Part shown: piece after piece, positions 41,679 to 42,746 of the stretch | How positions within the stretch are numbered: position 1 is the first letter of the stretch | Layout: the number at the start of each line of letters is the position of its first letter | From: Bryobacteraceae bacterium | GTDB lineage: Bacteria > Acidobacteriota > Terriglobia > Bryobacterales > Bryobacteraceae | Length of the DNA: 64,000 bases | Reading direction: 5' to 3' | Assembly: GCA_023384675.1 (NCBI GenBank) | Contig: JAHDVK010000005.1 | Coordinates: 62,001-126,000, forward strand | Made by a program: the position numbers and the translations under genes | The notes under the pieces: generated by a model | Database searches by the model: none | Told to the model about the DNA's origin: nothing | The model's input: only the letters and a program-made list of their open reading frames with translations

Positions 41679-42746
41679 CTACTTGCGCCGCAGGGTCTCG
41701 GGCACGCGCACGCCGTCGTGTTCTTCCAGGCGGAAGCGCCACTCGACGGGCAGCGATACCGGTGTGTAACAGACCTTGTCGTCGCAAGCCTGATAGCGGA
41801 ACTCGCCGCGCAGCCGGACGGCGCCGTCCGTTCCGGCCAGTGACTGCAAAGCCTTCTGCTGGGGAAACGTCACATCGCGATAAACGCGGAACCTGCCTTC
41901 GAAGACCGGCACGGTCTCCTGAATCGCGGGCAGGTGCAGGGTCTTTGAGGCCGGGTACGCGGCCTCGGTGGACTTCGCGCCATCGGGCAATTGCATGGTC
42001 CACGAGACCGGAATGTAGCCCGCCACGCCGGGTGCGTACACGTGCATTTTTGCTGGTAGGTCCACTTCGAGGACAAGCCGGACGCGGAAGCCGCCCCGCG
42101 CCGCTGTGTCGCTGGCCCCGTGGCGCAGCCTCAGATGCCTGGTCCGGGTGTCGGCCCAACCCGAGGAGTCCGGCGGCGAGGTCTCGATCAGGATCGTGCC
42201 GGCGGAGTAGCGCTCGCGGTAGTTCTCCTCCAGGTACTTCCGCTGAACCTTGGCATCGGCCCCGATGACGAACGTGCCGGGCCAGGGAACGCCATGGAAC
42301 GGGGTGCCGGCAGGCACGGTTTCATTCAGCAGGCCGAACTCCCGGATCACGCGGGACTCGGGGTCGCTCAGCAGCGGGACGGTGACGCCGCGGCGCCGCG
42401 CGAAAGCGCTCAGAACCTCGACGCTGTCGTAGCTGAGGGCCGCGACGTTCAATCCCTGCTTTGCAAAGGCCGCTTTTTGCTCTTCCAACTCGACCAGTTG
42501 GGTTTTGCACCACGGTCACCAATCGGCGGAACGGTAGATGACAATCACCAGACCGTTCGGGCCCTTGAGCGAGTCGAAGGTTTGCGCGCGGCCGTGCTGG
42601 TCGCGCGCGGTGAAAGCGGGAATGGGCTGGCCAACGGCCGGACCGGGGTCCCGGGGCATCTGCGCGGAGAGCATGGCCGGGACCAGAGAAACCCAAAAGG
42701 CGGCACGGGGAAATATCATCCCCCAAGGATTCGTTCGCAGCCCCAT
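41679..42746 (-). CDS. Selenoprotein: exported Sec-containing redoxin fused to a DsbD N-terminal-like domain
   Basis: Reading through one in-frame TGA (42518-42516) gives a 355-residue protein. Signal peptide (about 1-28), AhpC/TSA-type redoxin domain (about 35-180) in which the TGA is residue 77 in IYRSADW-U-PWCKTQLVELEEQ, exactly where the redox Cys of such redoxins sits, with Cys80 completing UxxC. The rest of the fold continues in frame (LSDPESRVIREFGLL, GTFVIGADAKVQRKYLEE). Residues ~195-345 resemble the DsbD alpha domain, with Cys321/Cys326 in YQACDDKVCYTPVSLPVEW. A hairpin follows the TGA by 14 nt. ATG 42746 chosen; 42719 possible. Likely an envelope peroxidase/thiol reductase. If TGA were a stop, the catalytic site would be lost. 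Confidence 0.85.
42485..42518 (-). promoter_or_regulatory. Sec UGA codon and candidate bacterial SECIS hairpin (redoxin gene)
   Basis: Minus strand: TGA (42518-42516), 14 nt, then CCAACT-GGTCG-AGTTGG (42501-42485), a perfect 6 bp stem with a 5 nt loop starting GGUC. E. coli fdhF SECIS has the loop GGUCU at a comparable distance from its UGA, and the loop guanines are what SelB contacts. Confidence 0.8.

Follow-up and report, generated by a model that had tools for sequence, protein, structure and literature searches.

The SECIS elements of bacteria have been described as largely dissimilar to one another (PMC13188914). The bSECISearch consensus, restated in the same work, comprises a stem of 4-16 bp, a loop of 3-9 nt, a distance of 16-37 nt between the UGA and the loop, a G as one of the first two loop bases, often followed by G or U, and a minimum free energy (MFE) of -7.5 kcal/mol or lower. 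The E. coli SECIS is longer, at ~40 nt, and its bulged U17 was reported to be essential (PMC8659212). For the SECIS of redoxin-DsbD_N proteins in particular we found no specific description in the open-access literature, an absence that is not evidence of novelty.

Here, we analysed a stretch of 64,000 nucleotides (the window) containing a redoxin gene with an in-frame TGA, and compared the hairpin that follows this TGA with its counterparts in homologous genes. Judged from sequence comparison, the hairpin is almost certainly a bacterial SECIS that would support SelB-dependent decoding of the UGA as selenocysteine (Sec).

The redoxin gene, its UGA and the hairpin

The gene, its domains and the parts of the hairpin are listed in Table 1. 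The TGA stands where a CxxC motif would have its first Cys. After the Met at 42719 comes a hydrophobic stretch with LSA at its end, and from this N-terminus the redoxin is probably exported. With its U-P-W-C site, the product is probably a thiol/selenol oxidoreductase or peroxidase. It belongs with the known UxxC selenoproteins of the Prx-like thiol:disulfide oxidoreductase/redoxin group (PF00578, PF08534; Table 1 of PMC13188914), with which it shares the redoxin fold and the UxxC site, and it differs from them in its C-terminal fusion to a DsbD_N domain. This DsbD-alpha-like domain carries a C-x4-C motif; together with the Sec site it might act as an intramolecular relay. The nearest named relatives are Bryobacteraceae/Bryobacterales genomes, which places the window in an acidobacterium of the order Bryobacterales. 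No NCBIfam model reached its cut-off for the redoxin-DsbD_N protein. A weak redoxin match in the same genome, listed with a TGA (L181), had no stop in the re-read frame.

Table 1. Features of the redoxin selenoprotein gene and its hairpin (window coordinates).
Feature	Position	Strand	Basis
Selenoprotein gene read through TGA	41679..42719	-	Translation, homology; Met 42719 start inferred (signal-peptide-like N-terminus)
AhpC/TSA-redoxin domain with UxxC	42240..42635	-	PF00578, E 8.8e-29
DsbD_N (DsbD alpha-like) domain	41760..42083	-	PF11412, E 1.1e-7
In-frame TGA read as selenocysteine (SADW-U-PWC)	42516..42518	-	Aligns with Cys TGC/TGT in 18 homologues, TGA in 152
14-nt spacer, UGA to stem; four codons (P-W-C-K) plus two bases of the following one	42502..42515	-	Sequence
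SECIS stem 5' arm CCAACU	42496..42501	-	Pairs with 42485-42490; conserved/covarying among Sec homologues
Apical loop GGUCG	42491..42495	-	GU = 42494, 42493 (second and third bases), nearly invariant, 151/152
Covarying loop pair	42495 + 42492	-	Pair 20-23 covariation
SECIS stem 3' arm AGUUGG	42485..42490	-	Pairs with 5' arm

TGA is a stop in translation table 11, and an alternative TTG start is available downstream, at 42488; both would suit a TGA that simply ends the gene or that arose as a lesion in a pseudogene, the downstream ORF then being separate or dead. We consider this explanation exceedingly improbable, as 152 distinct homologues from across the phylum share the TGA at this active-site position, the reading frame on either side of it is open and conserved, and the genome has a complete Sec machinery.

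Read directly from the sequence, with the coordinates recomputed, the minus strand from 42501 to 42485 is CCAACT-GGTCG-AGTTGG, with six Watson-Crick pairs and zero mismatches, just as an earlier note on this DNA had reported for a perfect 6 bp stem 14 nt past the UGA. The span that the note gave to it, 42485-42515, also takes in the spacer; the hairpin proper covers 42485-42501. The loop, 5 nt long, begins +20 nt from the UGA, and the hairpin sequence doubles as coding sequence for Thr-Gln-Leu-Val-Glu-Leu. The MFE was -9.2 kcal/mol for the UGA plus 42 nt and -6.4 kcal/mol for the hairpin by itself; in the window, RNAfold adds a 3-bp lower helix. Rfam gave no match at the gathering threshold and no SECIS family even at E ≤ 10.

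We then asked how often such a structure is encountered behind a TGA. Among the 1574 TGA trinucleotides on both strands of the window, 4.3% precede a perfect 6-bp stem under general rules for spacing and loop G (a loop of 3-9 nt that lies at +16 to +37 and has G as its first or second base). Requiring also that the loop be of the fdhF-like GU type and lie at +18 to +21 reduces the fraction to 0.19% (3 TGAs, the redoxin hairpin included). Given the encoded peptide and the codon usage of the gene, six pairs have a probability of ~0.30. The earlier note had argued that the hairpin is constrained twice; a perfect stem does lie within coding sequence, but as a lone argument this is weak. Since the stem is this probable given protein and codon usage, the single-sequence evidence is weak and our conclusion rests on comparative data.

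Stem retention and covariation among homologues

We drew homologues from the phylum (396 genomes), the order (257 genomes) and a named collection (78 loci). After removal of identical stretches, 152 TGA and 18 Cys sequences of the redoxin family were left. All six pairs were intact in 141 of the 152 distinct Sec homologues versus 2 of the 18 Cys homologues (Fisher p 1.5e-13, computed on sequences that are related). A codon-aware null, in which the protein was kept and synonymous codons were drawn from each gene's own usage, predicts 26/152 intact stems in Sec genes and 0.8/18 in Cys genes. The median hairpin MFE was -8.9 kcal/mol in Sec genes versus -0.9 kcal/mol in Cys genes.

A short and stable hairpin might also be an RNA element unrelated to Sec, e.g. 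an intrinsic terminator or an attenuator. The sequence 3' of the hairpin contains no U-run, however, and the hairpin lies within the coding region and is lost along with Sec, so that such a function is scarcely conceivable here.

The two Cys homologues with the full stem intact (L140, L224) come from genomes in which SelB is not detectable, which fits a recent loss of Sec; they are likely fossils of recent Sec-to-Cys replacement, and such fossils have been described for other families (PMC1794560). An in-frame TGA is also found in a more distant redoxin clade (L156-L178, motif F[FY]xRGxW-U-xxC); in many of its members a stem occupies the corresponding site, and the loop of some has GG in place of GU.

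Pairs are numbered with the first base after the UGA as 0. At pair 14-30, Sec genes carry GC in 74 cases, CG in 66, UA in 2 and UG in 2; at pair 17-27 the counts are 113 GC, 36 AU and 2 GU. The remaining four stem pairs are essentially fixed. Within the loop, pair 20-23 is CG in 73 genes and GC in 53; this pair was unanticipated and flanks the nearly invariant GU (151/152). These three were the top column pairs by mutual information in the first 45 nt, and the covariation score was 0.354; shuffled controls gave 0.134, and slid controls did not exceed 0.092. The comparison of Sec with Cys homologues for which the earlier note had called came out in favor of the element: besides the difference in intact stems, compensatory changes were seen at two pairs of the stem and one of the loop.

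Because the Sec and Cys sequences are related, we also used a tree test. The tree was built with FastTree, so that its support values are approximate, and the residues coded by the hairpin were left out; 13 Sec/Cys changes were placed on it. In the 10 supported independent pairs, the core stem followed Sec in 9.3 on average and opposed it in 0.0, with a median p of 0.004. For pair 17-27, whose two sides both change synonymously in nearly every sequence, 8.9 of 10 cases were concordant and 0 discordant; the corresponding figures were 5.6 of 7 and 0 for pair 14-30, and 9.6 of 14 and 0.7 for pair 20-23. Control combinations yielded only 1.2-2.1 concordant changes. N20-N24 was considered as the loop-closing pair and rejected by the same test, N20-N23 being preferred.

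The association between the Leu and Val codons beneath pair 20-23 had an odds ratio of 258. Codon-pair bias was rejected as the source of the loop covariation: other Leu-Val pairs in the same genes gave an odds ratio of 0.76 (p 0.39).

These data bear on the view that the hairpin is a by-product of the conserved peptide Q-L-V-E-L and codon bias, with Sec decoded via another signal or none. The window stem taken singly, with the probability given above, would be compatible with such an origin. The excess of intact Sec stems over the codon-aware expectation, the purely synonymous covariation at pair 17-27, the lack of a stem in most Cys homologues despite related peptides, the tree-based tests and the lack of a comparable codon association elsewhere in the same genes all speak against it, and we regard it as very improbable.

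A functional SECIS could also be larger, like the long E. coli element, the 6-bp hairpin then being only its tip; the lower helix drawn by RNAfold in the window would agree with this. In the first 45 nt, however, there was no covariation beyond pairs 14-30 to 20-23, and the putative lower helix, which we rejected, makes use of an invariant Cys codon. A larger element is thus unlikely, though less so than the by-product, and we retain the 6-bp hairpin as the candidate SECIS.

Selenocysteine machinery and constraint on the protein

The same genome encodes SelB, with GTPase, SelB beta-barrel and SelB-wing_3 (C-terminal winged helix) domains, as well as SelA (E 4e-120), SelD (E 1e-104) and a tRNA-Sec with anticodon TCA (UCA). 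Across genomes, SelB was detected in 58 of 64 with a Sec copy versus 6 of 16 with Cys copies only (hand tally; Fisher p 2e-5). Several of the six Sec-gene genomes that had no SelB match are incomplete drafts. In the genus of the window, two genomes (G560, G561) have SelB and no match to the window redoxin at E ≤ 1e-30; Sec use there presumably serves other genes.

Together with the Sec/Cys contrast in the stem and the covariation, the complete machinery supports the earlier note's reading of the hairpin as a putative SelB-dependent SECIS. We infer that SelB binds the hairpin and that Sec is inserted at the redoxin UGA. When the ribosome arrives at this codon, SelB loaded with GTP and Sec-tRNA-Sec(UCA) would use its C-terminal winged-helix domain to contact the stem and the GU in the apical loop. 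SelB would thereby deliver selenocysteine to the UGA, competing with release factor 2, and the ribosome would then translate on through the hairpin.

The protein differs between Sec and Cys forms where the hairpin is encoded. The loop residue is Val in 151/152 Sec genes, and Ala or Ile in 8/18 Cys genes. After it, every Sec gene has Glu or Gln, encoded by a codon that ends in G, and 6/18 Cys genes have Asp. We attribute the restriction of Ala/Ile and Asp to Cys forms to the constraint from the RNA being gone there. For the Leu of the 3' arm, the codon CUC, which accounts for roughly one in three Leu codons of these genes, was used in 0/152 Sec versus 7/18 Cys genes. Pair 14-30 links a wobble base to the choice between Glu and Gln at a later residue. 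We see evenly balanced chances that the acidobacterial redoxins represent a SECIS class of their own, one without a bulge, where SelB would read an extruded GU above a covarying N20-N23 closure and a strict 6-bp stem and where the element dictates protein sequence.

With ~150 homologous elements and Cys controls, the family provides a covariation-level view of one bacterial SECIS, covering the pairs that matter, the loop bases that are fixed and the limits that the RNA sets on the amino acids of the enzyme. Its natural compensatory pairs are available for probing SelB recognition without the U17 bulge of E. coli. In annotation, the UGA of this widespread acidobacterial redoxin family should be given as Sec and not as a stop.

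Comparison with known SECIS elements

The redoxin hairpin belongs to an already known kind of signal, the bacterial SECIS. It follows an in-frame UGA aligned with Cys or Sec, covaries in Sec genes and is lost in Cys genes, and its host has SelA, SelB, SelD and tRNA-Sec.

A second element was observed in the same genome outside the window, in a selD gene (L279, G000:C42:114913-115809) with an in-frame TGA (KAAG-U-ASK) and the hairpin GGUCCAA-AGGUA-UUGGACC. Sec-type selD genes of the order have the common stem GUCCAA/UUGGAC, and in the two Cys-type selD genes seen the loop motif is lost and the hairpin is degenerate. In the genome and the order, the selD SECIS likewise lies ~19-20 nt after the UGA and has a loop G followed by G or U; its stem sequence is unrelated to that of the redoxin SECIS, and its loop is mostly AGGUU.

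The window hairpin conforms to the bSECIS model (PMC13188914), with 6 bp, a 5-nt loop of GGUCG, a distance of 20 nt and -9.2 kcal/mol over 45 nt. A difference from the model is that the best-supported loop pair of the redoxin family, N20-N23, closes directly over the GU.

The likeness to E. coli fdhF that the earlier note had pointed out holds for the GGUC loop motif and for the distance from UGA to loop (20 nt in the window versus 18 nt in fdhF). The invariant GU corresponds to G23 and U24 of fdhF, and N20-N23 matches G22 and C25 by position. The likeness does not extend to the bulged U17, as position 15 in the redoxin stem is C paired with G in 151/152 sequences. The redoxin loop also has five nt, whereas that of fdhF has four, and there is no covarying lower helix. 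With loop and distance alike and the bulge absent, the redoxin element is therefore to be seen as a bSECIS rather than as a copy of the fdhF type.
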